Shown here piece after piece: positions 2,222 to 19,697 of a stretch of 24,317 nt of DNA; position 1 is the first letter of the stretch; the number at the start of each line of letters is the position of its first letter. The notes beneath the pieces are model-generated. The model did not search any database, was not told the DNA's origin, and saw nothing but the letters and a program-made list of their open reading frames with translations. The position numbers were made by a program, and so were the translations under genes. Origin of the DNA: a virus; the IMG/VR virus record IMGVR_UViG_3300037071_000605, positions 1 through 24,317 of that record. One strand, 5' to 3'.

Positions 2222-2827
2222 CAGCAGCCTCCATCGCGGCAGCTACGGCAGCGTCCTCGGATCGCGCCTGACGACGTAGGACGGCCCCTAAGCGCATCTC
2301 GGCCAGATACTGGAGTCTGACCACGTACTCGGCCCAGGACTCCGCTGGCGTGGCGTAGTGGGCGTCGTGGATGGCCTTCACCGCGAGCGGTGAGGTCAGG
2401 TAGAGACTAGGGTCGCTGATGTCGATGCCACCGTCCGCCCATTGCGAGAGGGTCGCGGCATCGCCTTCTGTAAAGGGCGCATCAGTTCGGGGACGTACAG
2501 GTCCGCAGCCTCGTCCAGGATGGGCTTGATGGTCGTTTCCCAGTCGAGCGCCCCGCCCATCATCGTGTCCACATCGCAGGGGATGACATCGTGATCCTCG
2601 GACAAGATGTTCCAGCGCAGGACCTCCCCGAGCAGGATGGGCGTCAGTTCTCGCATCAGCTCTTCCTTGCCCAATCCTGAAGTCAGTACGGTCGTGGCTG
2701 CCCATGCCGCATCGGGTCGGATACGAGGACGCAGCCACGCCTTGTCTCCTTCCTGATGCGGTGTCTCGGGACATTCGCATGGCCCGATGTTGACCTCGAC
2801 AGGTTCTGTGGCCCGTAGTCTTGACAC
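2208..2827 (-). CDS. Tail assembly chaperone GT, by -1 ribosomal frameshift
   Basis: Fused long chaperone of 206 aa. Ribosomes read 119 codons of G up to CGC CCT TTA, slip back one base on CCCTTTA, and continue ACA GAA GGC GAT. This adds 87 residues: TEGDAATLSQWADGGIDISDPS, LAVKAIHDAHYATPAESWAEYVVRLQYLAEMRLGAVLRRQ, and so on. The second frame has no credible start of its own; upstream of the slip site it reads as Arg-rich shadow. Such G/GT pairs are conserved in tailed phages, with a low share of ribosomes making GT. It overlaps the tape measure start by 14 bases. Confidence 0.88.
2396..2827 (-). CDS. Tail assembly chaperone G (short form)
   Basis: A 143-aa protein starting at GTG 2827 (SRLRATEPVEVNIGPCECPE), overlapping the tail tube stop as TAGTG. 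It contains KEELMRELTPILLGEVLRWNILSEDHD and ETTIKPILDEAADLYVPELMRPLQ. In siphophages, two overlapping genes between tail tube and tape measure encode the chaperones that load onto the tape measure during tail assembly. Most ribosomes should make this form. Its last 24 codons after the slippery site are a short Arg/Ser/Thr tail. Order and the frameshift site support the call more than the sequence itself. Confidence 0.85.
   Translation of the reverse strand: MSRLRATEPVEVNIGPCECPETPHQEGDKAWLRPRIRPDAAWAATTVLTSGLGKEELMRELTPILLGEVLRWNILSEDHDVIPCDVDTMMGGALDWETTIKPILDEAADLYVPELMRPLQKAMPRPSRNGRTVASTSATLVST
2471..2477 (-). other. Slippery heptamer CCCTTTA for -1 frameshift
   Basis: In the G frame the minus strand reads C-CCT-TTA, fitting the X XXY YYZ rule for a -1 tandem slip to CCC-TTT. 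It lies 75 bases before the G stop, and the T frame is open across it. I did not identify a clear stimulating stem downstream. Confidence 0.85.
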
Positions 2828-3867
2828 TAGGGCAGCGTCGCCAGTTGGTTCGTGACGGACGAGCGGTACGCGTAGCCCAGTGAGGCATCGTAGCCGCCGA
2901 CCAGCATCAGCTCCACGACCGCGTTGCCGCCGATCTCAGCATCGGTCCGGGTACGCCATGTCCCTCGGAGCCGCTGGTCCCAGGAGAACGGGATACCCGC
3001 CGATGCCTCGACCTCGGATGTGGTCAGGAGCTTGACGTACCGGTTGACCGCAGTCCCGTTCAGCCAGTCCACCGTCTCGCTGTTGAGGGCCGCGACGATC
3101 TGGCTCGTCTTGGCGAAGCGGAACGTGGCGGTGATGGCGCGGGCACTGAGCCCGTAGCCGACGATCTGGAACCGGGTATTGGAGCCCTGCGCGAAGCGCT
3201 TCAGGTCGATGGTGTTCTCGATGGTGATCTCTGCCGAGTGCATCGAGTCCGCGATGAGCGTCCCGCCGATGCTGCCAGAGGCGTCGTCGATGTAGAGCGC
3301 GGTGTCCGCACCGAAGACCAGCGGCAGATTGGAGCCGACCGTCAGGCCCGCTGTCCGGGTACGGTGGGCGTTGACGCCACTGAAGCGCCAGTCCGACGCG
3401 ATCTGCCACGGACCCAGCGTCTCATCGAAGCCCATCTGTAGGCTCTCGATGATGCCGCCGTAAAGTTGCATCCCGTCTTCGGGTGCCGGGGTCACGTCAT
3501 CGCTGAACTCGTCTGTGAAGTAGTCCAGCGTGGTTCCGGTCAGGGACAGGGCCTGATGCGCCCACGTGAATGAGGTCCCCGACGATGACGGGGAAACGCC
3601 GCCACGAACACCCGCCGCCATGAGCAGCGGGATGTGGTGATACGTCATCGACGCCGCGAGTGGGAGCGTGATGTCCGCACCGACCCTGTACGGCGGGAGA
3701 GTCGGGTCGATGGACCCGGTGTCTACGTCGTCCTGCTCGGTCCAGTTCGGGTTGATGTCCGGAACACCACGGAAGGCGATACGCCGCGTCGCCGCTACCG
3801 GGGTGTTGATGACGGTCTGTAGACCGAACTGATGGGATCGGTTCCGAGTGAACCCTTGGATCGGCAT
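2827..3867 (-). CDS. Major tail (tail tube) protein
   Basis: A 346-aa protein directly before the tail chaperones, as expected for the tail tube. It is beta-rich with Gly, Ser and Thr: TRRIAFRGVPDINPNWTEQDDVDTGSIDP, GADITLPLAASMTYHHIPLLMAAGV, SLTGTTLDYFTDEFSDD, YGGIIESLQMGFDETLGPWQIASDW. The AEITIENTIDLKRFAQGSN and KLLTTSEVEASAG segments are typical tube elements. ATG at 3867 has GGGAGA 6 bases upstream, in a 17-base sequence also present before the portal gene. TAG overlaps the chaperone GTG. It should be abundant and is a candidate target for glycosylation by the island enzymes. Confidence 0.88.
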   Translation of the reverse strand: MPIQGFTRNRSHQFGLQTVINTPVAATRRIAFRGVPDINPNWTEQDDVDTGSIDPTLPPYRVGADITLPLAASMTYHHIPLLMAAGVRGGVSPSSSGTSFTWAHQALSLTGTTLDYFTDEFSDDVTPAPEDGMQLYGGIIESLQMGFDETLGPWQIASDWRFSGVNAHRTRTAGLTVGSNLPLVFGADTALYIDDASGSIGGTLIADSMHSAEITIENTIDLKRFAQGSNTRFQIVGYGLSARAITATFRFAKTSQIVAALNSETVDWLNGTAVNRYVKLLTTSEVEASAGIPFSWDQRLRGTWRTRTDAEIGGNAVVELMLVGGYDASLGYAYRSSVTNQLATLP

Positions 3868-4404: not shown

Positions 4405-4872
4405 TCACGCCGCGCCGTTCCAGCGGGTGATGATGCTGTCTCGCGGGATGCCCGCGTCCCTCAGCATCTCCTCGGCAGCGGGAATCAGGTACGGCTGCGC
4501 CCGTGTGCCGGGGTGGTTGACGTAGCGGGCGAAGACGACGGCAGCGCCCCGTCTGGCCGAGCCCGAGAGGCGTTGCCCAGCCGCCGTCGCAGCGAAGCGC
4601 AGCGCCTTGACGTTACGGGGCCGGATGATGTGGGGCCGGGTGCCCTTCTCGACGGCAGCGGCGTAGCTCGCCCGCGCCTCGATGACGGCACGGTCACTCG
4701 TGACCGATGCGACCTCGATGGAGCGCTGGAGGTTGCGGGTCCGGTACGGTGCCTTCTTGATGGCGCGGCGTGCAGTCTCAGCCGCCATCGCGTTCATCAT
4801 GGCCCGGTGTCCCTGCGCCGATGCGATGGCGGCGAGGCGTTTCTGGAGGCCCGTCGCGCCCTGGAGGGTCAC
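4405..4872 (-). CDS. HK97 gp10-like head-tail / tail completion protein
   Basis: A 155-aa protein of the HK97 gp10-like family. Typical parts: GLQKRLAAIASAQ at the N-terminus, ARRAIKKAPYRTRNLQRSIEV, a VEKGTRPHIIRPRNVKALRF segment (the family's E-x-G-T-x-P-H-x-I motif), and VNHPGTRAQPYLIPAAEEM at the end (H-P-G-T-x-A-x-P-Y). Family members join head and tail or complete the tail. GTG at 4872 overlaps the connector stop (GTGA); the ATG at 4911 lies too far inside the connector gene and only adds Arg-rich shadow. A 70-base gap with an inverted repeat follows. Confidence 0.9.
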   Translation of the reverse strand: MTLQGATGLQKRLAAIASAQGHRAMMNAMAAETARRAIKKAPYRTRNLQRSIEVASVTSDRAVIEARASYAAAVEKGTRPHIIRPRNVKALRFAATAAGQRLSGSARRGAAVVFARYVNHPGTRAQPYLIPAAEEMLRDAGIPRDSIITRWNGAA

Positions 4873-5555
4873 ACGCCCGCCACGGCGACGGCCTGCTCGC
4901 CCAGCGTCCACTCATCGATGAAGCCCCGGACTTCCATCGGCAGCTCACGGTACGAGAGCAGCGCGCCCTCCGGCGTGACCTGAGCGCCGGCGAGGACCGA
5001 CTGCGGACGCAGGGTGTAGAAGCTCGCCAGTACCTTGACGGCGTGGAGCACGTCGTCGGGCATCACCGGAGCGGTGCCGGGTATCTGCGGGTTATAGCCC
5101 CAGTCCCCGGTTATCACGAGGTCGTTCGCCTCGGACGAGTACGAGGACCCTGAGCCCCACGGAGGATGATCGAGGTTCTTGTCCCACCACAGCGGGTCCG
5201 ACTTGTACCAGTCGCCGTAGCCCACCGAGGGCACCCGGAACTGGATGCCGGTGTAGATGCCCGTGCTCATCCGGTCGGGGAGCAGGTGATACCCGGAGTC
5301 GGCCACGAGGTCCGATGTGTTCTTGGCAACGGACGATGCGCTCCGAAGGTCGGGGATGGTGACGATGGCGCGGCCCAGCGTCGTGAAGACCTTGGTCGTG
5401 TCCTCCTGGGGTTCGAACTGCCGCCCCGTCTGCCGCTGGAGGAACGCCTGCGCCGCCCTGATGTTGGACCCGATCTGAGCGTCACTGAACCGGCCCGTCG
5501 TGGACGGCTGCTGGAGATAGTCCCGAACGTCTGAGACTGCCAGGAAGAGGGCCAT
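4869..5555 (-). CDS. Head-tail connector (gp6/gp15-like adaptor)
   Basis: A 228-aa protein at the place where adaptor genes usually follow the capsid gene. N-terminal helices: LAVSDVRDYLQQPSTTGRFSDAQIGSNIRAAQAFLQRQTGRQF, then the short beta segment TTKVFTTLGRAIVTIPDLRSASSVA. Then ITGDWGYNPQIPGTAPVMPDDVLHAVKVLASFYTLRPQS, a layout typical of phage head-tail adaptors, with the W-G-Y and D-V-x-x-A-V pieces. It forms a ring beneath the portal. The ATG at 5555 has only a poor GGGG upstream. TATCAT lies 8 bases before it in a 22-base gap, so a leaderless promoter is possible. Stop overlaps the next GTG (GTGA). Confidence 0.82.
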   Translation of the reverse strand: MALFLAVSDVRDYLQQPSTTGRFSDAQIGSNIRAAQAFLQRQTGRQFEPQEDTTKVFTTLGRAIVTIPDLRSASSVAKNTSDLVADSGYHLLPDRMSTGIYTGIQFRVPSVGYGDWYKSDPLWWDKNLDHPPWGSGSSYSSEANDLVITGDWGYNPQIPGTAPVMPDDVLHAVKVLASFYTLRPQSVLAGAQVTPEGALLSYRELPMEVRGFIDEWTLGEQAVAVAGV

Positions 5556-5577: not shown

Positions 5578-6210
5578 TCAGGTCAGGAGATGCGCTATGA
5601 GATGCCCACCGATCCATTCGGTGTACGCGGGCGGGATAGCAAGACCTACCTCCTCCTGTGTCTCTGCCCACGGCATCCCCATCAGGTCACGGTTCATTGT
5701 GAACGGAGCCTGTCGAGAATGGGGATAGTCAACGATGCCCCTGCTACCCGTGTCGGTACTCTGCGTGATGGTCACTGGCCGCGACCCGGAATGGTCACAG
5801 ACGAACGGCAGGAGTATCAGGTCCCTCGTCTCAAAGTTACGATGCCGCCGTATGCCTAGCCCGAACATCGAGCCGCACAGCACGAAGCCATGCGTATACG
5901 GGGCTCCGATGACGTTCTCGATAACGAAAGGGACACCCGCCCCTAGCACCCTCTCCCTGGTCAGTGAATAGAGGTCTGGATGGCTTGACTGTAGGCCCGC
6001 CGCCTTAGATCCGGTCGTGTACGCCTGGCAAGGCGGCGATGCATGGATCGCGTCGAAGCCGTCCAGCGGATAGGTCATCGCGTCAGCCTGCACGAAAGCG
6101 AACGGGTAGTTCGGCTGTGGGTTGATGTCCACGCCCACCACGTCGAAGCCTGCCCGCGAGTAGCCCATCGCGGCCCCGCCTGCCCCGCAGAACAGGTCCA
6201 GCAGCCTCAC
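5578..6210 (-). CDS. C5-cytosine DNA methyltransferase (Dcm-like, compact)
   Basis: A 210-aa DNA cytosine-5 methyltransferase. Motif I: LLDLFCGAGGAAMGYSRAGF (3-22). Motif IV with the catalytic Pro-Cys: ASPPCQAYT (Cys61). Motif VI: VIENV (96-100). Motif VIII-like: GIRRHRNF (119-126). Motifs IX-X: GLAIPPAYTEWIGGHL. At 210 aa it is far shorter than bacterial Dcm (over 400 aa), so the target-recognition region is very small, as in other phage versions. GTG at 6210 overlaps the previous stop; an upstream ATG at 6255 adds only shadow sequence. Its DNA has less G+C than the tail genes. It may protect phage DNA from restriction. Modification of an unusual base is also possible, because the PCQAY context differs from the common PCQ(D/G)FS. 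Confidence 0.88.
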   Translation of the reverse strand: MRLLDLFCGAGGAAMGYSRAGFDVVGVDINPQPNYPFAFVQADAMTYPLDGFDAIHASPPCQAYTTGSKAAGLQSSHPDLYSLTRERVLGAGVPFVIENVIGAPYTHGFVLCGSMFGLGIRRHRNFETRDLILLPFVCDHSGSRPVTITQSTDTGSRGIVDYPHSRQAPFTMNRDLMGMPWAETQEEVGLAIPPAYTEWIGGHLIAHLLT

Positions 6211-6386
6211 CAGACCTTGACCGGTAGCCGAGACTCGCGGGCGCGGCGCACCCACTCAGGCTCCACGGTGTTCATGCGCTGCCAGAGCCCTACGCCACCG
6301 CAGACCGGGCACCGATTGCCCGAGAAATGATGGAGCCGGTTCGGGCATCCTGGATCGGTAGTCGGAGCCTTGGTGGTCTTTCTCAC
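6207..6386 (-). CDS. Small zinc-ribbon-like protein
   Basis: A 59-aa basic protein starting at GTG 6386 (RKTTKAPTTDPG). Cysteines lie in GCPNRLHHFSG and RCPVCGGVGLW, and with the HH pair they could bind one zinc. The C-terminus is EPEWVRRARESRLPVKVW. GTG overlaps the previous stop (GTGA), and its TGA overlaps the C5-methyltransferase GTG. The in-frame ATG at 6410 would need a longer overlap and is less likely. Possibly a partner of the methyltransferase, by position only. Confidence 0.65.
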   Translation of the reverse strand: MRKTTKAPTTDPGCPNRLHHFSGNRCPVCGGVGLWQRMNTVEPEWVRRARESRLPVKVW

Positions 6387-6547
6387 TTGATTCGATCCCC
6401 CTCGGTCCATCCGCCCTTCGGTGCGTTGTTGAAGATGCTGGGCTTGTTCGCGACCTTGGCCTCGTGGGCCTCCATGCTGGCCTTCAGCGCCTTGTAGGCT
6501 GCGATCTGCTTCTCTGTCCAGTTGGCCGGTAGGTCGTTCGTGTTCAT
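6383..6547 (-). CDS. Small helical protein, possibly from a leaderless mRNA
   Basis: A 54-aa protein, MNTNDLPANWTEKQIAAYKAL onward, with one charged helix (residues about 10-34) and an IFNNAPKGGWTEGDRIK end. Starts at TTG 6583 or ATG 6556 are in frame, but they lie in the promoter's -35 box and at the edge of its -10 box. ATG at 6547 fits a transcript starting at or near the codon itself. Stop overlaps the next GTG (GTGA). The family is not recognised; it is the first gene after the regulated promoter, so a regulatory role is worth considering. Confidence 0.62.
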   Translation of the reverse strand: MNTNDLPANWTEKQIAAYKALKASMEAHEAKVANKPSIFNNAPKGGWTEGDRIK

Positions 6548-6554
6548 GTGGTAC

Positions 6555-6583
6555 ATGCTAGACACTCCGTAGCAGAGTGTCAA
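6555..6583 (-). promoter_or_regulatory. Promoter TTGACA-17-TAGCAT overlapping a perfect palindrome
   Basis: On the minus strand a consensus -35 TTGACA (6583-6578) is followed by 17 bases and TAGCAT (6560-6555), fitting the TAnnnT -10 form. GACACTC, 7 bases, GAGTGTC (6581-6561) is a perfect 7-bp inverted repeat filling the spacer and the end of the -35 box, a natural operator for a dimeric repressor or activator. The ATG at 6547 is 8 bases past the -10 box, so the message may be leaderless. Confidence 0.72.
6561..6581. repeat. 7-bp inverted repeat, operator-like
   Basis: Perfect arms gacactc (6561-6567) and gagtgtc (6575-6581), spacing 7. Arm centres are about 14 bases apart, more than one DNA turn. 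I found no second copy of the pair in the window. It sits between the -35 and -10 boxes of the promoter above. Confidence 0.7.
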
Positions 6584-7881
6584 GCCCTGATATCAGCGGA
6601 AGGTACGGGGTCGTATGGATCAGGGGTACCACCGCCGAGGATGGTGACGAAGCGCTCGGCGCTCTGCTTCCAGTCGAAGCGCGAGCGGACGTGACGTGGG
6701 CCCAGCGCGCCGATGGCGGCAGCGCGTGACGGATGGTCGAGCATCCAGGCGATACTCCGGGTCATCTGCTCCTCGTCGGGCCTCGCCCAGAAGTGGTCGT
6801 ACTCGTTGTCGGTCAGGGTATTGACGGGGACCACCATGCCAGCGGGACCGATGACCTCTGGGACCGCGCTGTACTGGAGCCCGATGGCGGGGACACCGCA
6901 CGCCAGAGCTTCAGCGATGGTCAGCCCGAAGCCCTCAGCACCCGTGCTCACGTACAGGTCGGCAGCGTTGTAGAGCGTGTTCAGTATCTCGCGGCTCAGG
7001 TTCCCGCCGAGGTCGGACACGAGGATGCGCTCATCGACCTTCTTGGGGAACTTAGATACGGTGTCAGGGATGAAGCCGCCCTGATCCCACGCCTTGCAGT
7101 GGAGCATGACCACCACGTCGTCCCGCTCCATGATGATGGGCACGAGGGACCGGATCATGGCCGGGTAGTTCTTGCGGGGCATGTTCCGGTCGGTGCGGAC
7201 GATGGTCTTCAGCCGGGGGTCGAGTCCCCAGAAGCGCTTGGCGTCGTCCTTGGTCCTGATGGGCTTGTCTGGGTGCTTCGCGAGGACGATGGGCCGCGAC
7301 GGGGACACCGGCCAGAAATCCTCGGTGACACCGTGATAGACCACGGGCGGGCGGTATCCGACGACGCGGGCCATCTCATCGGCTCCGAACGTGGACATGG
7401 CGACGGGCTTGATGAAGGACCAGATATCGGACCACAGCGGCGGGAGGTCCACGCCCTCGACGGGGCAGTAGTGGTACGTCGGCACCTGCTTGAAGGTTCC
7501 GGCCTTATAGCCCTCGACGCCCTGGACCATGAGCCGGGTCCCGCCGAAGTCGCCCAGCATGAGCGCGGCGTCAACGGGCCAGTCGCCCCATGCCACGCCT
7601 GACACCATGAACGAGTCCGGCGTCTCGTTGGCGATGACCTTGGGGATGAAGTCGGCGGCTCCGATGGACGAGGGCAGGACATCACCGAACGGCCCTGAGC
7701 GGGTCTGCGTCAAGGACGCGAGACTGAAGGTCCGGCTGGCATAGGGCTCGTCCAACGCCGGGATATCGTTCTGACTGATGAAGCGGACATCCTGCCCGAT
7801 GTCCAGCAGCGCCCGTCCCAGGTCCATCGTCACGGTCCCGAAGCCTGTCCGGGCGAGGTCCCCGAAGAACAGTATCCTCAC
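6580..7881 (-). CDS. Glycosyltransferase, GT4-like
   Basis: The clearest glycosyltransferase of the island, 433 aa, GT-B fold. N-terminal domain: RILFFGDLARTGFGTVTMDLGRAL, the glycine-rich acceptor-side loop of GT4 enzymes. C-terminal domain: KTIVRTDRNMPRKNYPAMIRSL, VVVMLHCKAWD, then LYNAADLYVSTGAEGFGLTIAEALACGVPAIG, the EGFGLxxxEA donor-binding signature, and AVPEVIGPAGMVV. GTG at 7881 overlaps the previous stop (GTGA). Its own TGA lies inside the -35 box of the promoter at 6555-6583, so island expression and the next transcription unit meet here. Retaining activity with a nucleotide-sugar donor is expected for the family; the acceptor is unknown. Confidence 0.92.
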   Translation of the reverse strand: MRILFFGDLARTGFGTVTMDLGRALLDIGQDVRFISQNDIPALDEPYASRTFSLASLTQTRSGPFGDVLPSSIGAADFIPKVIANETPDSFMVSGVAWGDWPVDAALMLGDFGGTRLMVQGVEGYKAGTFKQVPTYHYCPVEGVDLPPLWSDIWSFIKPVAMSTFGADEMARVVGYRPPVVYHGVTEDFWPVSPSRPIVLAKHPDKPIRTKDDAKRFWGLDPRLKTIVRTDRNMPRKNYPAMIRSLVPIIMERDDVVVMLHCKAWDQGGFIPDTVSKFPKKVDERILVSDLGGNLSREILNTLYNAADLYVSTGAEGFGLTIAEALACGVPAIGLQYSAVPEVIGPAGMVVPVNTLTDNEYDHFWARPDEEQMTRSIAWMLDHPSRAAAIGALGPRHVRSRFDWKQSAERFVTILGGGTPDPYDPVPSADIRA

Positions 7882-8141
7882 GCCTCATCGACGGTGTAGC
7901 AGTCCACCATGTGAAAGTGCGGGCTGGTGTTCCAGTTTCTATGCTTGCCCGCCCACATGGCGTACCGCTTCAAGCGGAACCACCGCACCGGGTCCTCCGA
8001 ACAGTCGAGGGCAAACCCCTTCGCCTTGTCCTCTGACGAAGCGATCCCATCGATATACGTTCTGAACCGTCGTCCTACGTGATCCCAGTCATCTTCGTCA
8101 CGGCTGTCGTGAAACGCAGTCGTGGCAACGTACACCGTCAC
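7878..8141 (-). CDS. Small hypothetical protein (87 aa)
   Basis: An 87-aa protein, rich in aromatic residues, His and Asp: TAFHDSRDEDDWDHVGRRF, CSEDPVRWFRLKRYAMWAGKHRNW, HFHMVDCYTVDEA. No signal peptide or membrane segment. It starts at GTG 8141, overlapping the preceding stop (GTGA), and its stop overlaps the next GTG. Its place between two glycosyltransferase genes suggests a linked job, but I do not recognise the family. Confidence 0.62.
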   Translation of the reverse strand: MTVYVATTAFHDSRDEDDWDHVGRRFRTYIDGIASSEDKAKGFALDCSEDPVRWFRLKRYAMWAGKHRNWNTSPHFHMVDCYTVDEA

Positions 8142-9223
8142 GACAGCACGTCCTCCAGCATCCCCTTGATGACCTCGGCCTCATGCCCGAAGTCCACGAC
8201 CTCGCGGAACCGGGCAGCGGCGTTCTCGCTGATGCGCTGGTGGTACTCGTCATCGTCGCGGAGCCGGGTCAGGATGGCGGCAGTCTCTTCGAAGGTCCGA
8301 TCCTCGATGGCGAACGAGGTCACGCCTTCCTGGAACAGGATGCCCGCGAGCTTGTCGGCGTAGTAGTTCTGGAAGCCCAGCACCGGACGCCCGATGGCGA
8401 ACCAGTTATGCACGGTGTGCCCGTAGCCGTCGCTCAGTCTCTTGACGTGGAGTCCGACACGGGCTGCGCGCATCTTGTCTGCCAGTTCGGGGACCAGTGA
8501 CACGTCACCGGCCTTCCACTGGTCATCCGGTCCCCAGCCATAGGCACCGTACACCTTGAAGTCGAAGTCGTCCGCGTACCGCTCTGCCAGCGCCCGGAAC
8601 AGGGGATAGTCCGGGGACTCGGGAAAGCCGTTCACCCACGACGCGACCTCTCGCCGGTTGGCGGGCGGGTAGTCGTGGTAAAAGACCTTCTCGATGTCGA
8701 ACTCCTGATGGTAGACGACGGTCGGGACGCCCTTGTACATCGAACGCTTGGCGATGGCATCGAGCCCCAGTCCCGGCAGCGTCGAGCTGGACAGGATGAA
8801 CTCAGCGGCATCCCACAGCGACTCCTGATGATTGTTCCCGACCTGGACCCCGAAGCGCGCCCCGGTCTGCTTGGCGAAGGCCGAGAAGCCGGGATCGTTG
8901 TGGGGCAGGGACGAGAGGATGAGGTCCCACTCCATGTCTCTCGCCATCGCGAGACTGACACCCTTCTGAGTACGCCACGGGTGCCGAGGATCGGGCCTGA
9001 GCTTGATGTATTCCCCGCCCTCCGAGCCATCCCACCAGCCCATCAGGAACTGCTTCGCTACGGCGTCACCGTGGACCTTCTTCTCGAATTGCCAGATGTC
9101 CTCGGTGAACCAGTCCATGCCTTGGGGAAACCAGCACTCCCAGCCGTAGCGATCCTCGAAGAGCATGAGCAGGCTTTCTGCTAGGGCGTGATGGTGGAGG
9201 TCGGTCAGAACACGGATGGTCAT
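8138..9223 (-). CDS. Glycosyltransferase-like protein, GT-B fold (long DLHH paralog)
   Basis: A 361-aa protein starting MTIRVLTDLHHHALAESL. It shares with the 281-aa protein (10726-11571) the TDLHHxxLxESLxMLFxDR start, a YHxEFD or YHPEFH element before the linker, the donor-site block DGYGHTVHNWFAIGRPVLG, and the VDFGHEAEVIKGMLEDVL end. The extra length is in the first half (GMDWFTEDIWQFEKK to KLRPDPRHPWRTQKG). ATG at 9223 overlaps the previous stop (ATGA); an in-frame ATG at 9244 is rejected because it lies inside the previous gene and before the conserved start. It is probably a glycosyltransferase with an acceptor different from its paralog. Confidence 0.8.
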   Translation of the reverse strand: MTIRVLTDLHHHALAESLLMLFEDRYGWECWFPQGMDWFTEDIWQFEKKVHGDAVAKQFLMGWWDGSEGGEYIKLRPDPRHPWRTQKGVSLAMARDMEWDLILSSLPHNDPGFSAFAKQTGARFGVQVGNNHQESLWDAAEFILSSSTLPGLGLDAIAKRSMYKGVPTVVYHQEFDIEKVFYHDYPPANRREVASWVNGFPESPDYPLFRALAERYADDFDFKVYGAYGWGPDDQWKAGDVSLVPELADKMRAARVGLHVKRLSDGYGHTVHNWFAIGRPVLGFQNYYADKLAGILFQEGVTSFAIEDRTFEETAAILTRLRDDDEYHQRISENAAARFREVVDFGHEAEVIKGMLEDVLS

Positions 9224-9432
9224 TCCTCCCACCTGTAAACCCACGTCCCAAGCCTCCCCCGCCCATAGCGCCGATACGTGCCAGTCCGTACCGATGGCTT
9301 ACTGGGACTGGTCAAGCCGATCTCTGCTAATCGGAACGTCGGAAACGTCTTCACAGGCACGACGTATCTGGCGCGAAGATCAGAAACGTCAAGGTAGCCT
9401 TGGCGGGGCCCACCTTCAAAGAACACCCTCAT
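9220..9432 (-). CDS. Small hypothetical protein (70 aa)
   Basis: A 70-aa basic protein beginning MRVFFEGGPRQGYLDVSD and ending GRGRLGTWVYRWEE. The FEGGPxxGxxxxV start and YRRxGR...WVY end follow a pattern I associate with short phage proteins of one beta-rich domain, with no known role. ATG at 9432 overlaps the glycosyltransferase stop (ATGA), and its own stop overlaps the next ATG. Its DNA looks less G+C rich than the glycosyltransferase genes on either side. Confidence 0.65.
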   Translation of the reverse strand: MRVFFEGGPRQGYLDVSDLRARYVVPVKTFPTFRLAEIGLTSPSKPSVRTGTYRRYGRGRLGTWVYRWEE

Positions 9433-10535
9433 ACGACCTCCCTCGTCGCCACATCGGGCAGCTCATCAGGCTCCGGGTCAGGCTGGGTCCAGCCATCGAG
9501 CCAACCGCGCCATGCCTGATACACGCGATCCTTACCAAAGAGGGCGATGGCACGTTCGCGACTGACGGCCCCGACCTGTCCGGCGTAGTCATCATCGTCC
9601 AGCAGGCCACGCAGCATCTCGTTGGCCTCCATCGGGGAGTCCGACCAGAGCGGCGCGATCATGTGGCCCTCATAGATGCGGGGCAGATACGGCATCGCCT
9701 GACGCCCTACCCCGGCCCAGCTATTGGGACCGATGGCGACGACGGGACAGCCGGTCATCATCGCCTCGATGAGGCCCAGCGTGTACGAGGCCGGGATGGT
9801 CCCGGTCCATAGCACGGCACGGGCGGCACGCATCTCTTCCATGAGCTGCGCGGGCGGGACCTTGCCCAGCCCACGAGCGCCGATCTCCTCTGTCTGCGGC
9901 CCGACCCAGAGCGTGGGTAAGTCTTTCGTCGCGTCCAGCGCCCATGCGGTCCCGACCCATGCCTGCCGCTTGACGGGGTTCTGCGTGACGATGAGGACGT
10001 GCCCGCCCTGACCGTGCCAGCCGGTGTACTCATCGGGGTCTTTGTAGAAGCGGATCATCGTAGACTCGCCCGCGTAGTTGGGGATATTGCGTTCCTGCGG
10101 GGAGTAGCGGACCACCTCGCACCCGGCCTCGACGTAGGGCTTCGCCTGCCACTCGTTGGCGTGCGAGGACTGGCCCACGGTGCGCCAGATGATGCGCTTG
10201 CCCGCCGACTGGAACCTGGCGAACTGGGGCCAGAGCCAGCGGTCCAGGATGTGGTGGACCATGATCGTGTCGCACCAGTCGAGGATGTCATCCGGCACAT
10301 GGTCCTTGGCGGCCCACGTCGTACCGTGCTGCCCCGGAGATACCGGGAGTGCGTCTACGATCGCCTTCAGCTCCGGGTGGGCCTTAGCGTCCGGCAATGG
10401 CGGCCTCATGTCGTCCTGCGGGTTGGCGGGGTCGATGTAGGCACCGGGACTGAACACGTCGTGTCCAAGGTCGGTGAACATGCGGATGACGTCGTATTCC
10501 TCAATCGAGTGAGCAGTCAGGCTCAGTATCTTCAT
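9429..10535 (-). CDS. Glycosyltransferase, GT-B fold
   Basis: A 368-aa glycosyltransferase-like protein. N-terminal Rossmann half: MKILSLTAHSIEEYDVIRMFTDLGHDVFSPG, later IMVHHILDRWLWPQF, RIIWRTVGQSSHANEW and AGCEVVRYSPQE. C-terminal half: HVLIVTQNPVKRQAW, LWVGPQTEEIGARGLG, MRAARAVLWTGTIPASYTLGLIEAMMTGCPVVAIG. The last block fits the donor-site region of GT4-like enzymes, with Glu of LIEAMMTG in the usual place. ATG at 10535 overlaps the previous stop and its TGA overlaps the next ATG. It belongs to the four-enzyme island. Sugar specificity cannot be read. Confidence 0.85.
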   Translation of the reverse strand: MKILSLTAHSIEEYDVIRMFTDLGHDVFSPGAYIDPANPQDDMRPPLPDAKAHPELKAIVDALPVSPGQHGTTWAAKDHVPDDILDWCDTIMVHHILDRWLWPQFARFQSAGKRIIWRTVGQSSHANEWQAKPYVEAGCEVVRYSPQERNIPNYAGESTMIRFYKDPDEYTGWHGQGGHVLIVTQNPVKRQAWVGTAWALDATKDLPTLWVGPQTEEIGARGLGKVPPAQLMEEMRAARAVLWTGTIPASYTLGLIEAMMTGCPVVAIGPNSWAGVGRQAMPYLPRIYEGHMIAPLWSDSPMEANEMLRGLLDDDDYAGQVGAVSRERAIALFGKDRVYQAWRGWLDGWTQPDPEPDELPDVATREVV

Positions 10536-10729
10536 CGCGCCAGACGCCGCTTGACGGCGAGCCGGATGCCGTACTCCCGGCCCACCTTGGCGGCGTGGTC
10601 GGTGTAGGTCACAAGACGTACTGCCTCTCCGTCATCGTTCCGTCCCCACCACCACCACTCAGGATGAGGGTGCCGGCAACGCATCGGGCCATATCCACAC
10701 CACATACAGACCAGCGAAGGCAGCATCAC
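10532..10729 (-). CDS. Small Cys/His-rich protein between glycosyltransferases
   Basis: A 65-aa protein with a likely metal site: CMWC near residues 8-11, Cys18, then HPHP. A WWWWGR run and a basic C-terminus (GIRLAVKRRLAR) follow. GTG at 10729 or ATG at 10726 could start it; both overlap the previous stop. Its own stop overlaps the next ATG (ATGA). The close coupling on both sides supports a real gene. Function not recognised; a small accessory or nucleic-acid-binding role is conceivable. Confidence 0.6.
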   Translation of the reverse strand: MMLPSLVCMWCGYGPMRCRHPHPEWWWWGRNDDGEAVRLVTYTDHAAKVGREYGIRLAVKRRLAR

Positions 10730-11571
10730 AGCCGCGCCTCCAGGTAGTCACGCACCATGTCAGCCTCGGCGTCGAAGTCCACGAGGGAGTCGAACTCTGC
10801 ACGAGCAAAGCGCCCGATGGCGTCAAAGTGCATCGGGTCCAGCGTGTCACCCGGCTCCAAGTGCGACCAGCCCTGCCCGAACAGAGGCTCCGCGATCTTG
10901 CCCTCGTAATGGCTCTTGTGCCCGATGACGGCGCGGCCAGAGGCGAAGGCTTCATGGACGCCGAAGCCATAGCCATCGGCATCCTTGCAGTGCCAGATGG
11001 CGATGCAGTCGCTCCGGGCCTGCGCGACCTGATGCGGGCGCAACTGATCCTCGATGGTCCCGAAGATGCGCCACTCGTACTCCGGGTGCGCTTCGGATGC
11101 CTCGTCCCACCACTTGCGACAGGGGCTATGGGCGAAGGACGCATGGAACGAGCCGATACGGTTCCCGGTCGGCGGCACCCACGGCACCCGGTGAAACTCG
11201 GGGTGATAGGTGACGCCGGACGTGCCGCCGTTGGTCACGGCCCAGAGAATGTTCGGCCCGATGGGCTGGTCCCAGGCGTTGCCGATGTGGTCGATGTACA
11301 ACGCGCCGACACTCTCAGCCAGCGAGCGCATCGGCTCCCGTGTCCCGCCCACGGTGGAGATGACGATATCGGCTCCCATCCGCTTCAACCATTCGGATGA
11401 CACGAGCACCGGGAACCTCCCGAACTCTTCGGTGCCATAGCCGACCTTCGCCTGATAGTGCCCATCCACCCAGCCGAACAACTCAGCCTCACCCAGGATG
11501 GCGCGGTCCACGAAGAGCATCGCCAGGGACTCATAGAGTACCGAGTGATGGAGGTCGGTGACGATCCTCAC
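10726..11571 (-). CDS. Glycosyltransferase-like protein, GT-B fold (short DLHH paralog)
   Basis: A 281-aa protein starting RIVTDLHHSVLYESLAMLFVDR. The C-terminal half has a GT-B donor-binding pattern: WRIFGTIEDQL, then DADGYGFGVHEAFASGRAVIGHKSHYEGK, comparable to the E-G-x-x-x-x-x-EA block of GT4-type enzymes. The same N-terminal DLHHxxLxESLxMLF motif, the DGYGxxVHxxFAxGRxVxG block and a VDFxxEA ending recur in the 361-aa protein at 8138-9223, so the two are paralogs. This one is about 80 residues shorter, mostly in the N-terminal half. GTG at 11571 overlaps the FkbM stop. It probably transfers a sugar to a phage or surface glycan; donor and acceptor are unknown. Confidence 0.78.
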   Translation of the reverse strand: MRIVTDLHHSVLYESLAMLFVDRAILGEAELFGWVDGHYQAKVGYGTEEFGRFPVLVSSEWLKRMGADIVISTVGGTREPMRSLAESVGALYIDHIGNAWDQPIGPNILWAVTNGGTSGVTYHPEFHRVPWVPPTGNRIGSFHASFAHSPCRKWWDEASEAHPEYEWRIFGTIEDQLRPHQVAQARSDCIAIWHCKDADGYGFGVHEAFASGRAVIGHKSHYEGKIAEPLFGQGWSHLEPGDTLDPMHFDAIGRFARAEFDSLVDFDAEADMVRDYLEARL

Positions 11572-12302
11572 TTGGCGACGGCCCGGAAGATGCCTGAGCC
11601 ACCGTAGTCGTCCAGCACTTCGATGACGTGGTTCGGTAGGACGCGGGCGATGTCAGCGGGTGCAGCGTCGTGGGCTTCTCCGACGATGAGCGGCATGAGT
11701 CCCGGTGTCGCGCCCCGTAAGAACTCCCACTCGCAACCCTCGCAGTCGATCTTGACGAACGCCCATGCACCGCTCGGGTCACTCAGCAGATGGTCAGCAG
11801 CGATGTCCCATGCCGTGACGATGGGCACCTCCGCGACCTCGGAGTCCACCTTCTCGTCATCGGTCAGACGCCAGATGTTGCCGACGTAGGCGTTCTGAGT
11901 GACGAAGCCGGGGTCTGCGAAGCCCTCCAGGCTCCGGTAGTCCCAGCGACAGGTCGCCGTGCCCTGCCCGTAGCCCGCCATCGCCTCGATGACGGTGACA
12001 CGATCGGAGACGCCGTTCAGCTCGGCGCTCTGCCGACACAGTTCTGCGTTGTCGGGGATGGGCTCGACCATGACGACACGCAGCCTCGGATGGTCTACCG
12101 CGAGCGCGATGCCCACGGTCCCGACATGGGCACCGATGTCCAGCGCCACGCCCTCCATGTCGTCGGGCAGCTCGGCCAGCCGGTACTCGTCCCCGCCAAG
12201 GATGCCGACCACGAGGGCTTCATCGTTGACGTGGGGCCGCGTCCAGAAGCGGACGGTGTTTCCCTTCGGCGTCGTCGCGATGGTCAGGCGTTCAGTCGGC
12301 AT
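11568..12302 (-). CDS. FkbM-family SAM-dependent methyltransferase
   Basis: A 244-aa methyltransferase of the FkbM type, usually an O-methyltransferase for sugars or small molecules. SAM-binding motif I is VALDIGAHVGTVGIAL (about 52-67), followed by the acidic loop VVMVEPIPDN (76-85). The family's second block VKIDCEGCEWEFL is at 183-195, a form of the FkbM signature KIDVEGxE. Lying first among the enzyme genes and next to four glycosyltransferases, it probably caps or decorates a glycan by O-methylation. ATG at 12302 overlaps the membrane protein gene; its stop overlaps the next GTG (GTGA). The acceptor is unknown. Confidence 0.88.
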   Translation of the reverse strand: MPTERLTIATTPKGNTVRFWTRPHVNDEALVVGILGGDEYRLAELPDDMEGVALDIGAHVGTVGIALAVDHPRLRVVMVEPIPDNAELCRQSAELNGVSDRVTVIEAMAGYGQGTATCRWDYRSLEGFADPGFVTQNAYVGNIWRLTDDEKVDSEVAEVPIVTAWDIAADHLLSDPSGAWAFVKIDCEGCEWEFLRGATPGLMPLIVGEAHDAAPADIARVLPNHVIEVLDDYGGSGIFRAVAK

Positions 12303-12465
12303 CGAGAACCCAGAGCATCACGCCTGCCCCCACCGGCAGACCGACCAGCATCCCGATGAAACTCGGGGCATGGAGGACGCTGTTCACCAGAGCCCACACG
12401 ATGCCCGTCGCGAGTACCGCTAGGACCCATACGACGGCCCGCTGCTTACGTGTCGCCAGTGTCAT
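12292..12465 (-). CDS. Small two-helix membrane protein
   Basis: A 57-aa protein, first gene after the promoter. After a basic start (MTLATRKQR), residues 10-31 and about 35-54 are hydrophobic (VVWVLAVLATGIVWALVNSVL and FIGMLVGLPVGAGVMLWVL), giving two membrane helices with a short HAPS turn. ATG at 12465 is preceded by GGGAG with 7 bases spacing. An upstream in-frame ATG at 12603 would put the terminator and leader inside the gene and is rejected. It overlaps the FkbM-like gene by 11 bases. It might anchor glycosylation enzymes at the membrane or be a holin-like protein. Nothing in its sequence names a function. Confidence 0.75.
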   Translation of the reverse strand: MTLATRKQRAVVWVLAVLATGIVWALVNSVLHAPSFIGMLVGLPVGAGVMLWVLDAD

Positions 12466-12530
12466 GTGCCACTCCCTTCGGAAACGGAGCCGGGACGGAC
12501 AGACACCCTGATAGGTGGCACCCGGCTCCG
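12466..12530 (-). promoter_or_regulatory. Structured leader with perfect 10-bp stem and possible pseudoknot
   Basis: The leader starts with CGGAGCCGGG (12530-12521), has a 26-base loop, and closes with CCCGGCTCCG (12494-12485), a perfect 10-bp stem. GTGCCAC at the start of the loop (12521-12515, using one stem base) is exactly complementary to GTGGCAC at 12472-12466, between the GGGAG ribosome-binding site and the ATG of the next gene. Pairing would make a pseudoknot covering the start region. This could control translation of the island. The structure is read by eye only. Confidence 0.5.
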
Positions 12531-12538
12531 CTGCACAG

Positions 12539-12566
12539 GATATAGCGTCGGTGTCGGGGTCCGCAA
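12539..12566 (-). promoter_or_regulatory. Candidate promoter TTGCGG-16-TATATC
   Basis: Between the terminator and the small membrane protein gene, the minus strand reads TTGCGG (12566-12561), 16 bases, then TATATC (12544-12539). These are fair matches to bacterial housekeeping -35 and -10 boxes. A transcript would start near 12532, exactly where the leader inverted repeat begins. Position after a strong terminator supports it. No experimental evidence. Confidence 0.5.
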
Positions 12567-12570
12567 GACC

Positions 12571-12609
12571 CAAAGAAAGAGCCCCGGTGGGGGATGAGTC
12601 CACCGGGGC
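12571..12609 (-). terminator. Intrinsic terminator after capsid gene
   Basis: On the minus strand, GCCCCGGTGG, a 9-base loop and CCACCGGGGC form a perfect 10-bp G+C-rich stem, followed directly by TCTTTCTTTG. Stem plus U-rich tail is the form of a Rho-independent terminator. It lies 50-90 bases past the capsid stop and just ahead of the promoter at 12539-12566. It probably limits read-through from the head genes into the glycosylation island. Confidence 0.85.
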
Positions 12610-12658
12610 CGAAGGGAGGAGGGGACCGGAGGAGGCCAGTCCCGACCCTCACATGGTA

Positions 12659-14131
12659 CTAGGCGACGGCATCCTCGATGAGGGCGAAGTAGCCCGCGTA
12701 CACGGCAGCCCGTGCATCGAGAGCCAGCTCCTCCTCACCACGGAACCCGGTGAGGTTGGTGTCCCATCGGGTACCAGCCTCGGAGCTGGTGTCGATGCGG
12801 ACATCATCGCCGTGGTACACCTTCACGCGGTCCCACTGCCCGATGACAGCGTGGTCCGCTTCCATGTTGATATCCGGGAAGACCGGGATACCCCACGGAC
12901 TGATGAGCGTCCCCGGATTGACGGTCCCGCCGTTGAGCTGCGGGAGCGCGGTCGGCCCGTTGGCCGGCGTGACCCAGAAGCCGGCGGTATCGGAGCCCTG
13001 TGCGACGAACGTCCAATAGTTGGCCGGCGACACGACTGCCGACAGCCGACCCTCGACGCCACGTCCAGCGAGTGCGCCTGCGGACTTCGCCAGCGCCGTC
13101 GCGAACGAACCCGCGACCGTGCTGTTGGAGGCCGTGTGCGACACGTCGAACGCATCCGCCGACGCATCGAGCGCGGTGAGGACGCCGTAAGGCTCCGATG
13201 ATCCCGAGCCCCGCAGGATGTAGTAGCCCTCGCCGCGCAGGAGCGCGTCGGCAAGCTCTGTCATCACGTCCTGCTCCGCCGCACCCTGTGACTGGCGCAG
13301 GAACTGGTTGGCGACGTCGTAGATGCGAGCGATGGTGTACATCGTCGCCGTGTACCCGTCATAGACGAGGTTGGTATTCGGCTTGGTCGCGCCCCAGGCC
13401 GTGACCGTGGCGCGGGTGTTCACGTTCTGCACGTAGTTGCGGAACGGGATATCGACGTTGCCGTTGACGCCGAAGATGTGGGTGCAGATCTGCCGGAACC
13501 ACGCTCGGTACGCGGCAGGCTTGATGAAGTTATCGACCAGGTTGTTCGGGATCAGGAACGCGCCGGTGGCGTCCGTGGACCCGAGCGTGGCCTTGCCCAG
13601 AGGGACATCGCCACCGCTGGACGCGGCCCATGCCTCGGTCGGGAGAGCCCCGGCCATCGGCTTGCGGCGTTCGACGCCAAGCTCGGCGAGCTTCGCCTTG
13701 CCCCAGACCTGCTCGTCGTGGTCGCCTGACCGTGTGGCCAGGACAGCCGCGATGAACGAGCCGTTCTGGTACTCGGCCTTGGCCTGCCCCACGAAGGAGC
13801 CGATGAGCCCCGCCTTGGAAGGCTTGCGGACGGTGGAAAGAAAATCGTTCATGTCCGCGACGGCCTTAGCCGTCTGGGCTTCACGCTCCCGCGCCTGATG
13901 CTCCTCGGTGAGCACCTGGAGCTTCTCGCTGATCTCCTTGCGCTCCGCGTCGGCGGCTTCCCAGCGAGCTTGATCGTCACCCTTGGCCTCGGTCATCACA
14001 TCGATGACGGCCTTCAGGCGTCCGGTCAGCTCGCCGATCTGCTCCGTCGCAGGCTCGGCCATGATCCTGGCGACGGACGCATCCGTCGTCTGGTAGATGG
14101 GTGTCTCGTCAGAGGCGGTCGGTTCCGCCAT
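12659..14131 (-). CDS. Major capsid protein, HK97 fold
   Basis: Major capsid protein, 490 aa, phage HK97-like. Residues about 30-95 form a charged coiled coil (AEPATEQIGELTGRL to HQAREREAQTAKA), the delta or scaffold domain normally removed by the protease. The mature part begins somewhere after about residue 100. It contains GAFLIPNNLVDNFIKPAAY, VDIPFRNYVQ, VTAWGATKPNTNLVYDGY, IARIYDVANQFLRQS, ELADALLRGEGYYILRGSG, and the closing FRGEEELALDARAAVYAGYFALI, all typical of this fold. ATG at 14131 is chosen over one at 14161 because GGAGG lies 8 bases before it. A strong intrinsic terminator follows 50 bases after the stop. Its product should be the most abundant head protein. Confidence 0.95.
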   Translation of the reverse strand: MAEPTASDETPIYQTTDASVARIMAEPATEQIGELTGRLKAVIDVMTEAKGDDQARWEAADAERKEISEKLQVLTEEHQAREREAQTAKAVADMNDFLSTVRKPSKAGLIGSFVGQAKAEYQNGSFIAAVLATRSGDHDEQVWGKAKLAELGVERRKPMAGALPTEAWAASSGGDVPLGKATLGSTDATGAFLIPNNLVDNFIKPAAYRAWFRQICTHIFGVNGNVDIPFRNYVQNVNTRATVTAWGATKPNTNLVYDGYTATMYTIARIYDVANQFLRQSQGAAEQDVMTELADALLRGEGYYILRGSGSSEPYGVLTALDASADAFDVSHTASNSTVAGSFATALAKSAGALAGRGVEGRLSAVVSPANYWTFVAQGSDTAGFWVTPANGPTALPQLNGGTVNPGTLISPWGIPVFPDINMEADHAVIGQWDRVKVYHGDDVRIDTSSEAGTRWDTNLTGFRGEEELALDARAAVYAGYFALIEDAVA

Positions 14132-15189: not shown

Positions 15190-15863
15190 CAGGGCGCCAT
15201 GAGCCCTGCGGCGATGAGTGCGGTGATGACCGCATTGACGGCGAAGTCCGCGGGCTCGACCTCGGGCTCCACCAGCGGCACGTTAGCGGCTATCGCCATC
15301 GTCGGGCCCGGAGCCACGATACCGAGCGAGCCGATCGCGGTCGCAAGGTCTTGGATAGTGGCGTTGTTGGGAAGCGTGGTCTGCTGCGCGGGGCTGGCGC
15401 CGAACATGCCCATCGAGACGGTACCGCTGTCGTCCCAGAAGGAGAAACCCCCTCCAGCCGTGTGCCCAAGGATGTTGACCCGAGCGAACCCGCTTCCGTT
15501 GTCAGCGATGACCCGGAACACTTGCGACTGGTCGGACTTCATCACGACAAGGCCAGCCCCGCCATCAGACTGGTCGAGAGGACCGCGTAGCTGTAGCCCA
15601 CCCGTCGCGTCGTAGGTGAGCATCGGGTAGGACCCACCCTCGGCCATGACGTAGAGGACGTCGAACGCTCCGTCCACATTGCCCACGGGAGGCTGGACGA
15701 TCAGCGACACCTCGTCCGGGTCGGGCTGCTGGATCGTCAGCGTCTCGATGACGGGGTTCGCCAACAGCCCCGTCACGTCATGGTCCGCGTTCCAGTGGGT
15801 CGCGGAGACGTCCTTCGCGGCGTTGTTCGGGAGGACGGTCTGATGGGCGTGCTTGACGGTCAC
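15189..15863 (-). CDS. Virion fiber- or decoration-like protein
   Basis: A 224-aa protein starting at GTG 15863, with GGAGG 6 bases upstream, and overlapping the previous stop as GTGA. Residues 1-32 (TVKHAHQTVLPNN, then ATHWNADHDVTG) resemble the N-terminal attachment segment seen in phage fibers and collar or decoration proteins, where W-N-A-x-H is common. The middle (about 60-150) is Gly- and beta-rich: GAFDVLYVMAEGGSYPML, GLQLRGPLDQSDGGAGLVVM, GHTAGGGFSFWDDSG. The C-terminus has two short helical segments, ATIQDLATAIGSLGIV and FAVNAVITALIAAGLM, which look like copies of one oligomerising motif. It lies between capsid-associated genes, so attachment to the head is as likely as a tail-fiber role. 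Confidence 0.7.
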   Translation of the reverse strand: MTVKHAHQTVLPNNAAKDVSATHWNADHDVTGLLANPVIETLTIQQPDPDEVSLIVQPPVGNVDGAFDVLYVMAEGGSYPMLTYDATGGLQLRGPLDQSDGGAGLVVMKSDQSQVFRVIADNGSGFARVNILGHTAGGGFSFWDDSGTVSMGMFGASPAQQTTLPNNATIQDLATAIGSLGIVAPGPTMAIAANVPLVEPEVEPADFAVNAVITALIAAGLMAP

Positions 15864-16396
15864 TGCTCCTCCACTCGTGTCATGCGGCCCTGCTGATCGC
15901 GCTTGACCACGAAGTCCTTGGGACCGGGCCAGTTCGCCACGAAGACCGGGATCATGTCAGCGGACGCCTTCTCGTGTGGTGCCTCGATGTTCACCGTGGG
16001 CGCCTCGACGTTGACGATGGGCGCCTGCGCGGCTTCGACGTTGACGATGGGCGCAGGGACGACGACGGACGGACTCGGCTCCACGTTGACGACGGTCGGT
16101 GGCACGTCCACGTTGACCACGGTCGCCGGGATATCGACGTTGACGATGGGTGCGGGGATGTGGACATCGACGTTCCAGGTCTGCGTAGGCGGCTGGACGA
16201 CGACGGGCTCAGGGATGGGTGCGGCCTTGGCTTGTGGCAGCGGGATACCCTGTAGGGTCTGCCAGACCTCATCAGGCTCCCGCGTGTCCAGCAGACCGCG
16301 AACGTGGTCATGGGTCCGGCGATTGATGTCCGCCGCCGTGAGGCGTCCGCTCCTGACGCCCTCGATCATGGACGCCAGAGGATGTGAGCTACGCAT
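15860..16396 (-). CDS. Repeat-rich structural protein with VNV(D/E) repeats
   Basis: A 178-aa protein in three parts. Residues 1-50 look helical (SMIEGVRSGRLTAADINRRTHDHVRG). Residues about 73-140 are a run of roughly seven short repeats of 7-15 residues, each based on (V/I)NV(D/E) with Pro-Ala-Pro-(I/T)-V spacing. The C-terminus ends in KDFVVKRDQQGRMTRVEE, a KRDxxGR form often seen at the end of such phage proteins. The repeats are also visible in DNA as near copies of cgacgttgacgatgggcgc between 15990 and 16170. Alternating hydrophobic and polar residues suggest stacked beta strands or an extended rod. It sits among head genes and is probably a virion or head-associated component, exact role unknown. 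The ATG overlaps the previous stop. Confidence 0.8.
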   Translation of the reverse strand: MRSSHPLASMIEGVRSGRLTAADINRRTHDHVRGLLDTREPDEVWQTLQGIPLPQAKAAPIPEPVVVQPPTQTWNVDVHIPAPIVNVDIPATVVNVDVPPTVVNVEPSPSVVVPAPIVNVEAAQAPIVNVEAPTVNIEAPHEKASADMIPVFVANWPGPKDFVVKRDQQGRMTRVEEQ

Positions 16397-19309: not shown

Positions 19310-19486
19310 TCACTCTCCCGGCCCGCCCGTATCTTCTGGCTTCGGTTTCACGTTGAGCCACGCCCACAGCACCGCCGCCGCGAGCATGATAGCGCCACCG
19401 ATGACGATGGCGAGCGGCCACCAGATGAAGGCCACGCCGATGACGAGGATCAGGGTCGCGATGATGGCGAGCCGGTCAGGGGTCAT
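19310..19486 (-). CDS. Small two-helix membrane protein (holin-like)
   Basis: A 58-aa protein that starts MTPDRLAIIATLILV. Residues 6-21 and 24-44 are hydrophobic, separated by a short WWP turn, giving two likely membrane helices. The tail NVKPKPEDTGGPGE is charged and hydrophilic. ATG at 19486 overlaps the preceding stop (ATGA), and its stop lies 4 bases before the portal TTG start, so it is translated as part of the operon. The ribosome-binding site of the portal gene lies inside its last codons. Size and topology fit a small class II holin, which would pair with the lysozyme at 23075-23473, but many phage membrane proteins look like this. No family is recognised. Confidence 0.75.
   Translation of the reverse strand: MTPDRLAIIATLILVIGVAFIWWPLAIVIGGAIMLAAAVLWAWLNVKPKPEDTGGPGE
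19314..19330 (-). promoter_or_regulatory. Shared 17-base ribosome-binding region (portal copy)
   Basis: Identical to 3874-3890. Here it encodes the last residues (TGGPGE) of the 58-aa membrane protein and also supplies GGGAGAG for the portal TTG start. Confidence 0.65.
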
Positions 19487-19695: not shown

Positions 19696-19697
19696 GG

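Follow-up and report, generated by a model that had tools for sequence, protein, structure and literature searches.

The window analysed here, a 24,317-base fragment from IMG/VR (record IMGVR_UViG_3300037071_000605), carries a single late operon on the minus strand. Within this operon, a cassette of glycosyltransferase (GT) genes and an FkbM-family methyltransferase gene lies between the gene for the major capsid protein (MCP) and the gene for the head-tail connector. The cassette is the standard gene order of a lineage of uncultivated tailed phages and not an inserted island. It probably functions as a late glycan cassette, fixed in the head operon, that glycosylates a head protein, most likely the MCP. 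The operon encodes the C-terminus of the terminase large subunit, two DNA N6/N4 methyltransferases, a portal protein (identified by a PF04860 match), a MuF-like protein, a protease-like protein, the MCP, the cassette, the connector, and tail proteins. From 5' to 3', the cassette consists of a 57-aa membrane open reading frame (ORF), FkbM, GT4, a 65-aa ORF (s65), GT3, a 70-aa ORF (s70), GT2, an 87-aa ORF (s87), GT1, two small ORFs, and a C5-cytosine methyltransferase. GT1 to GT4 are gene names here; the enzyme family of the same name is always referred to as the GT4 family. An original prediction made from the DNA letters of the window had placed the four GTs, FkbM, and the small ORFs between the MCP and the connector with ATGA/GTGA overlaps, and all of them were found at the given positions on the minus strand. 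The span it assigned to them (5578-12465) also holds two genes that it did not mention, namely the C5-cytosine methyltransferase and the 57-aa membrane ORF.

Evidence for a fixed position comes from related loci. All counts sample the lineage, as they come from those IMG/VR contigs that short-pattern scans could reach; redundancy was removed via shared 60-mers. A survey that selected loci by their GTs found dozens of contigs with the order MCP-FkbM-GT3-GT2-GT1-connector, a result biased by the selection. Two other surveys were not selected on GTs, as the loci were fetched with an MCP alignment only or with a tail-protein alignment only. GT1 was present in 44/44 of the MCP-fetched loci that showed both the MCP and the connector (40/40 non-redundant genomes), and the distance between the MCP and the connector ranged from 2.2 to 7.7 kb and was never near zero. 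Among the tail-protein-fetched loci, GT1 adjoined the connector in 56 and was located 1.2 kb upstream in one more; no counter-example was observed in those long enough to tell. The combined non-redundant relatives that could be read from the MCP to the connector numbered 54. GT1 was found in 54/54, GT2 and GT3 in 41/54, and FkbM in 38/54, and the MCP directly adjoined the connector in none of them (0/54). Streptomyces phage OnionKnight, a terminase relative, has contiguous MCP and connector genes without a GT in this place, and the GT trait therefore belongs to the MCP/tail lineage. The claim that genes at this place are normally contiguous thus applies to phages such as OnionKnight but fails in all readable relatives of the window phage. 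Likewise, the idea of an inserted island does not survive, because GT1 between the MCP and the connector is the normal order of the lineage.

The genes of the cassette differ in how closely they follow the head genes. In the 54 genomes, pairwise divergence gave Spearman correlations of 0.71 for GT1 and MCP, 0.78 for GT1 and the connector, and 0.71 for MCP and the connector. The correlations with MCP were 0.20 for GT2, 0.17 for GT3, and 0.02 for FkbM. In the 13/54 genomes that lack GT2 and GT3, the gap holds other genes, mostly sugar genes. Among 75 ORFs from these gaps, Pfam identified 15 family-2 GTs and six epimerases/GDP-mannose dehydratases, as well as methyltransferases, hexapeptide acyltransferases, FdtA, NTP transferases, and a GDSL hydrolase. 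In other words, the gap content has the anatomy of a polysaccharide locus, whose core is fixed and whose middle is exchanged. The co-divergence of GT1 together with the replacement of GT2 and GT3 therefore points to one inherited core transferase that heads a swappable glycan locus. The expectation that related phages carry the same gene set in the same place is borne out for GT1 but only partly for the other enzymes, with GT2 and GT3 replaced, and FkbM retained, to the extent given above.

Are the encoded proteins glycosyltransferases? GT1 scored above the cut-off of Pfam PF00534 (38.7 bits vs 26.4), and its EX7E glutamates (E316/E324), as in retaining enzymes of the GT4 family, were invariant in 72/72 homologues. 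FkbM also exceeded the curated cut-offs of PF05050 (33.0 vs 22.7 bits) and TIGR01444 (64.3 vs 37.7 bits). GT2 and GT3 scored only at the cut-off of PF13524. Further evidence for these two comes from AlphaFold models, built from alignments of 78 (GT2) and 76 (GT3) natural sequences. The models were confident, with a pLDDT (predicted local distance difference test) of 96.0 for GT2 and 94.4 for GT3, and Foldseek matched both to solved GT-B enzymes of the GT4 family with a probability of 1.00, in accord with the fold proposed in the original prediction. The solved matches were ManT (7qsg), MshA, SdgB, and BshA for GT2, and PimA, BshA, PglA, and the teichoic acid enzyme TarM for GT3. In GT3, the first EX7E glutamate is replaced by Ala249 and the second, Glu257, is invariant. 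In GT2, both glutamates are missing and D265 and H272 stand in that region; the invariant residues of its family are D8, H11, K261, and D265-G-x-G (G266, G268). Because each family keeps its own invariant set, GT2 and GT3 are divergent yet under strong constraint. The GT2 family, a GT-B family without EX7E of which viral contigs contain 78 or more members, may have an unusual donor chemistry. GT4 has no Pfam match and was recognised only as a shortened GT2 paralogue (29-30% identity). Single-sequence scans of viral contigs with GT4 and GT2 gave no matches, and alignments were required. No membrane segments were predicted in members of the GT1 or GT2 family.

The arrangement of the genes indicates how they are expressed. 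In the window, an unbroken series of 4-nt ATGA/GTGA overlaps joins FkbM, GT4, s65, GT3, s70, GT2, s87, and GT1. Because an overlap is present at every junction from FkbM to GT1, the small ORFs are likely to be translated genes. No homologue of any small ORF was detected in six-frame ORFs of related loci (125 non-redundant), nor was there one in the relatives for 12292-12603, a longer frame of the 57-aa ORF; the proposal that the 65-, 70-, and 87-aa proteins are partners of the enzymes thus finds no backing in the relatives. ATGA-type 4-nt overlaps were also observed in the relatives, at 34/49 FkbM-GT3, 47/72 GT3-GT2, and 48/69 GT2-GT1 junctions. The start of the connector gene overlapped GT1 in 41/58 relatives, by 4 nt in 28 and by 23 nt in 13. 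Because the GT1-connector and other junctions overlap, the enzymes are co-translated with head-completion proteins. In the window, small ORFs and the C5-cytosine methyltransferase stand between GT1 and the connector.

A strong hairpin follows the MCP gene in most relatives. It beat all shuffles in 29/40 relatives, compared to 3-5/40 at the GT, FkbM, and connector junctions, and a strong hairpin was found after the tail-protein gene in 23/40. The window hairpin (12580-12610) does not go beyond its shuffles (-23.9 vs a mean of -18.7 and a best of -26.6). These hairpins are read as generally damping transcription after the most abundant structural genes, which would give many copies of the capsid protein and few of the enzymes. 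A role as a cassette-specific regulator was rejected, because hairpins are also present after the MCP in mycobacteriophage Thibault, OnionKnight, and locus L003 (see below), and after many tail genes. The post-MCP hairpins of loci L041, L081, L118, and others are unrelated in sequence, are mostly located <100 nt past the stop codon, and in many cases have no clear U tract; the structure is kept by position while the sequence changes. The original prediction had also proposed that the cassette is timed by its own promoter. A promoter search found a single sigma-70-like site (6555-6583) where 1.6 were expected, a number not above chance, and the site is downstream of GT1, which leaves this proposal unsupported.

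The same enzyme families occur at the same place in unrelated capsid lineages. Another capsid family (phrog_283, with no match to the MCP profile of the window lineage) is found in L003 and some 14 other loci, where GTs, including GT3 and GT2 homologues, come straight after the MCP. Among isolates, the MCP of Microcystis phage Mae-JY09 (PP395641) is followed first by a GT1 homologue (2.8e-37), next by an epimerase, and finally by an adaptor. A search of 50,697 isolate phage records gave no match to the window MCP, GT3, GT4, or tail protein, or to the GT2 and GT3 homologues of the relatives; because of this result, neither an isolate of the lineage nor a host can be named from isolates. The MCP alignment had no match in 84,980 species genomes, that is, no prophage of the capsid lineage was found there. 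The GT2 alignment matched only five contigs of metagenome-assembled genomes (MAGs), which are probably binned phage fragments and from which no host claim is drawn. GT3 homologues occur alongside GT2 homologues in L207, L208, and L209, stretches of 32-34 kb contigs from MAGs of Omnitrophota and Patescibacteria; possibly, they are phages and hint at hosts of the second capsid lineage. Two short contigs binned with Nanopelagicales and Acidobacteria MAGs (L206, L210), likely to be phage fragments as well, carry GT3-GT2-GT1 (L206) and GT2-GT1-tail protein (L210).

How might the cassette act? GT1 would attach or extend a conserved first sugar, a step guessed from the conservation of GT1. GT3, GT2, and in the window GT4 would add further sugars that lengthen the chain or make it variable. 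One of the sugars would be O-methylated by FkbM. The enzymes would work in the cytosol on the head protein while heads form, and such cytoplasmic action during head assembly is very probable. Because the enzymes have no membrane segments, their donors are probably nucleotide sugars of the cytosol; some relatives carry sugar-nucleotide genes of their own. The finished particle would carry a glycan coat that is partly methylated and varies in composition from phage to phage. A methyl-capped glycan on a virion protein was also foreseen in the original prediction. What stands of it is a glycan cassette encoded by the phage that includes a sugar-type methyltransferase; the virion target keeps the probability given above. 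We infer the acceptor, the linkage, the identity and order of the sugars, and a role of the glycan as a shield or in adhesion. More tentatively, the cassette could be the phage counterpart of a bacterial surface-antigen locus, in which GT1 primes the capsid glycan and recombination swaps the rest, giving 'capsid serotypes'. If the capsid protein is indeed glycosylated, many phage particles in the environment would be glycoconjugates whose coats vary, with consequences for adsorption, particle stability, grazing, and recognition by antibodies. In this large environmental lineage, one transferase is as conserved as the adjoining capsid gene, whereas the remainder of the pathway is exchanged.

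Several observations weigh against glycosylation of a head protein. Linkage could account for part of the co-divergence between GT1 and its neighbours, although GT2, GT3, and FkbM score low at about the same distance. Part of the argument from position rests on the L003-type loci, which were selected by their GTs and show association, not frequency. Several other phages, some with larger genomes, carry the same enzyme families kilobases away from the MCP. The consensus C-termini of the MCP and the tail protein are not rich in Ser/Thr, unlike the case of mycobacteriophages, whose glycans are located at C-termini.

The enzymes could instead act on the surface of the host (its wall teichoic acid, lipopolysaccharide, or capsule), either against superinfection or for release, in which case co-expression with the head genes would be incidental. 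The solved relatives of GT3 include TarM, which acts on teichoic acid, as well as PimA and PglA, which are lipid-linked GTs. Temperate phages are known to carry serotype-converting GTs (PMC12619734), and the authors who described the Cluster J mycobacteriophages left viral and host targets open (PMC3706429). However, modification of the host surface usually needs membrane partners. The cassette contains no flippase or integral-membrane GT, and none of the 75 gap proteins has at least three predicted membrane segments. Lysogenic conversion is unlikely because the species genomes searched contain no prophage of the lineage, and such a role would not be expected to tie the genes strictly to the head operon. 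Taken together, a host-surface target appears unlikely.

Another model is that the GTs glycosylate phage DNA: a C5-methyltransferase would make 5-methylcytosine, an oxidase would convert it to 5-hydroxymethylcytosine, and the GTs would add sugars, as in TET-type hypermodification. It draws on the C5-cytosine methyltransferase in the gene chain of the window and on a published case of DNA hypermodification by multiple GTs, known here through a citing paper (Pyle 2024, cited in PMC12619734). However, the pathway needs a hydroxylated base, and in searches whose positive controls scored, genes of the thymidylate-synthase/hydroxymethylase type (ThyA family) were found in just 1/30 relatives and the C5-methyltransferase family in 2/30, so the latter is an accessory gene and not a conserved partner. 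TET/JBP was detected in 0/50 records by a search without a positive control, which makes this weak negative evidence. These searches for a hydroxylating enzyme covered relatives; the window holds a fragment of its own genome. GT1 is universal without these partner enzymes, and the fold matches are GTs of sugars, lipids, small molecules, or proteins. A DNA target is thus very improbable. The same low probability is assigned to a model in which the region after the MCP is a tolerated landing site for morons, with sugar genes that have no virion-tied function. Arthrobacter cluster AL phages do have large unrelated insertions between the MCP and tail genes (PMC5513430), and the C5-methyltransferase and small ORFs of the window resemble such passengers. 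A landing site does not explain why GT1 is universal and evolves with the MCP and connector, why its catalytic EX7E is invariant, why sugar functions dominate the gap genes, or why the same enzyme classes occupy the same place in unrelated capsid lineages. Glycosylation of a head protein therefore remains the preferred explanation.

The features of the window are listed in the table below. Three further observations concern genes of the operon outside the cassette, all on the minus strand. In the second N6/N4 methyltransferase (19483-21239), the reading frame changes precisely at the HPT|VKP motif and splits the gene; the DNA there resembles a short local duplication, and this could be a broken gene, a slip site, or an assembly error. 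The gene that separates the two DNA methyltransferases (21017-21730) resembles GH26 below the threshold (E 0.0016). It lacks homologues in related loci, as does 15860-16396, a short way upstream of the capsid genes, which encodes a protein with repeated P-x-VNV units.

Table. Features of the cassette and its flanking genes (S-adenosylmethionine, SAM).
Feature	Coordinates	Strand	Evidence
MCP, HK97 fold, immediately 5' of the cassette	12659..14128	-	PF05065 1.8e-17; TIGR01554 68.5 vs 27.5 bits cut-off; phrog_10 7e-23
Attenuator-like hairpin 49 nt past the MCP stop, then CTTTCTTTG	12580..12610	-	folding vs shuffles
57-aa ORF with hydrophobic segments, overlapping the FkbM start	12292..12465	-	max KD19 2.2
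FkbM-family SAM methyltransferase, putative sugar O-methylase	11568..12302	-	PF05050 8e-8; TIGR01444
GT4, short GT2 paralogue	10726..11571	-	similarity to GT2; same place in L082, L083
s65, bridges GT4 and GT3 by 4-nt overlaps	10532..10729	-	
GT3, GT-B fold	9429..10535	-	model, fold match; 41/54 relatives
s70, bridges GT3 and GT2	9220..9432	-	
GT2, divergent GT-B fold family	8138..9223	-	model, fold match; 41/54 relatives
s87, bridges GT2 and GT1	7878..8141	-	weak DUF7336 match only, E 0.02
GT1, core GT of GT4-family type	6580..7881	-	PF00534 9e-10; 54/54 relatives
66-aa ORF after GT1, start codon uncertain	6383..6583	-	
67-aa ORF with Cys pairs, zinc-ribbon-like	6207..6410	-	weak Lar match, E 0.023
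C5-cytosine DNA methyltransferase, accessory; PPCQ and ENV motifs	about 5578..6210	-	phrog_363 1.3e-33; PF00145 1.8e-5
Head-tail connector/adaptor, immediately 3' of the cassette	4869..5555	-	phrog_442 1.2e-11
Conserved tail-region protein, probably major tail protein	2827..3867	-	anchor of the second survey not selected on GTs

In bacterial O-antigen and flagellin-glycosylation loci, a conserved framework encloses a set of GTs, methylases, and nucleotide-sugar genes that can be swapped. Unlike these loci, the cassette sits among phage head genes and shows no lipid-carrier or flippase genes. The serotype-converting gtr module consists of a flippase and an integral-membrane GT, neither of which was found among the 75 gap proteins. 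At the level of single enzymes, GT2 and GT3 share the fold of the GT4-family GT-B enzymes (ManT, MshA, BshA, SdgB, PimA) and GT1 has their EX7E motif, whereas GT2 and GT3 are without the full EX7E pair.

Phage capsid glycosylation is documented mainly in some mycobacteriophages. The layout closest in position is that of the Cluster J mycobacteriophages, described in 2013, which have 8-10 genes including GTs and methyltransferases between the MCP and the connector (PMC3706429), and whose target was left open at that time. As in the window, Cluster J phages (Thibault, JN201525; Omega; LittleE; Courthouse) carry several GTs and SAM methyltransferases at this position, and the content varies. They differ in having a Ser/Thr kinase and a lethal-factor-like peptidase as well, and they are six related isolates as opposed to a wide uncultured lineage with a universal core GT. 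Positions 1-26,000 of Thibault gave no match to the GT1, GT2, GT3, or FkbM profiles at E 0.01. Glycans on the capsid and tail tube of mycobacteriophages are documented, as reported by citing papers, and phage-encoded GTs are proposed to add them in Che8 and its relatives, as here (Freeman 2023, cited in PMC11256854 and PMC12619734). In these phages, the acceptor has been shown according to the same citing papers, whereas that of the window lineage is a proposed one, and the GT genes of the F1 relative Maravista are located near the 3' end of the genome and not in the head operon. Mae-JY09 is a cultured phage with the same layout but has no match to GT2, GT3, FkbM, or the MCP of the lineage. 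Because it carries a homologue of the core GT at the same place, the question of the target is testable. What is new here is that one GT of a lineage is kept as firmly as the capsid gene and heads a swappable cassette, and that the enzyme families involved are common to unrelated capsid lineages.

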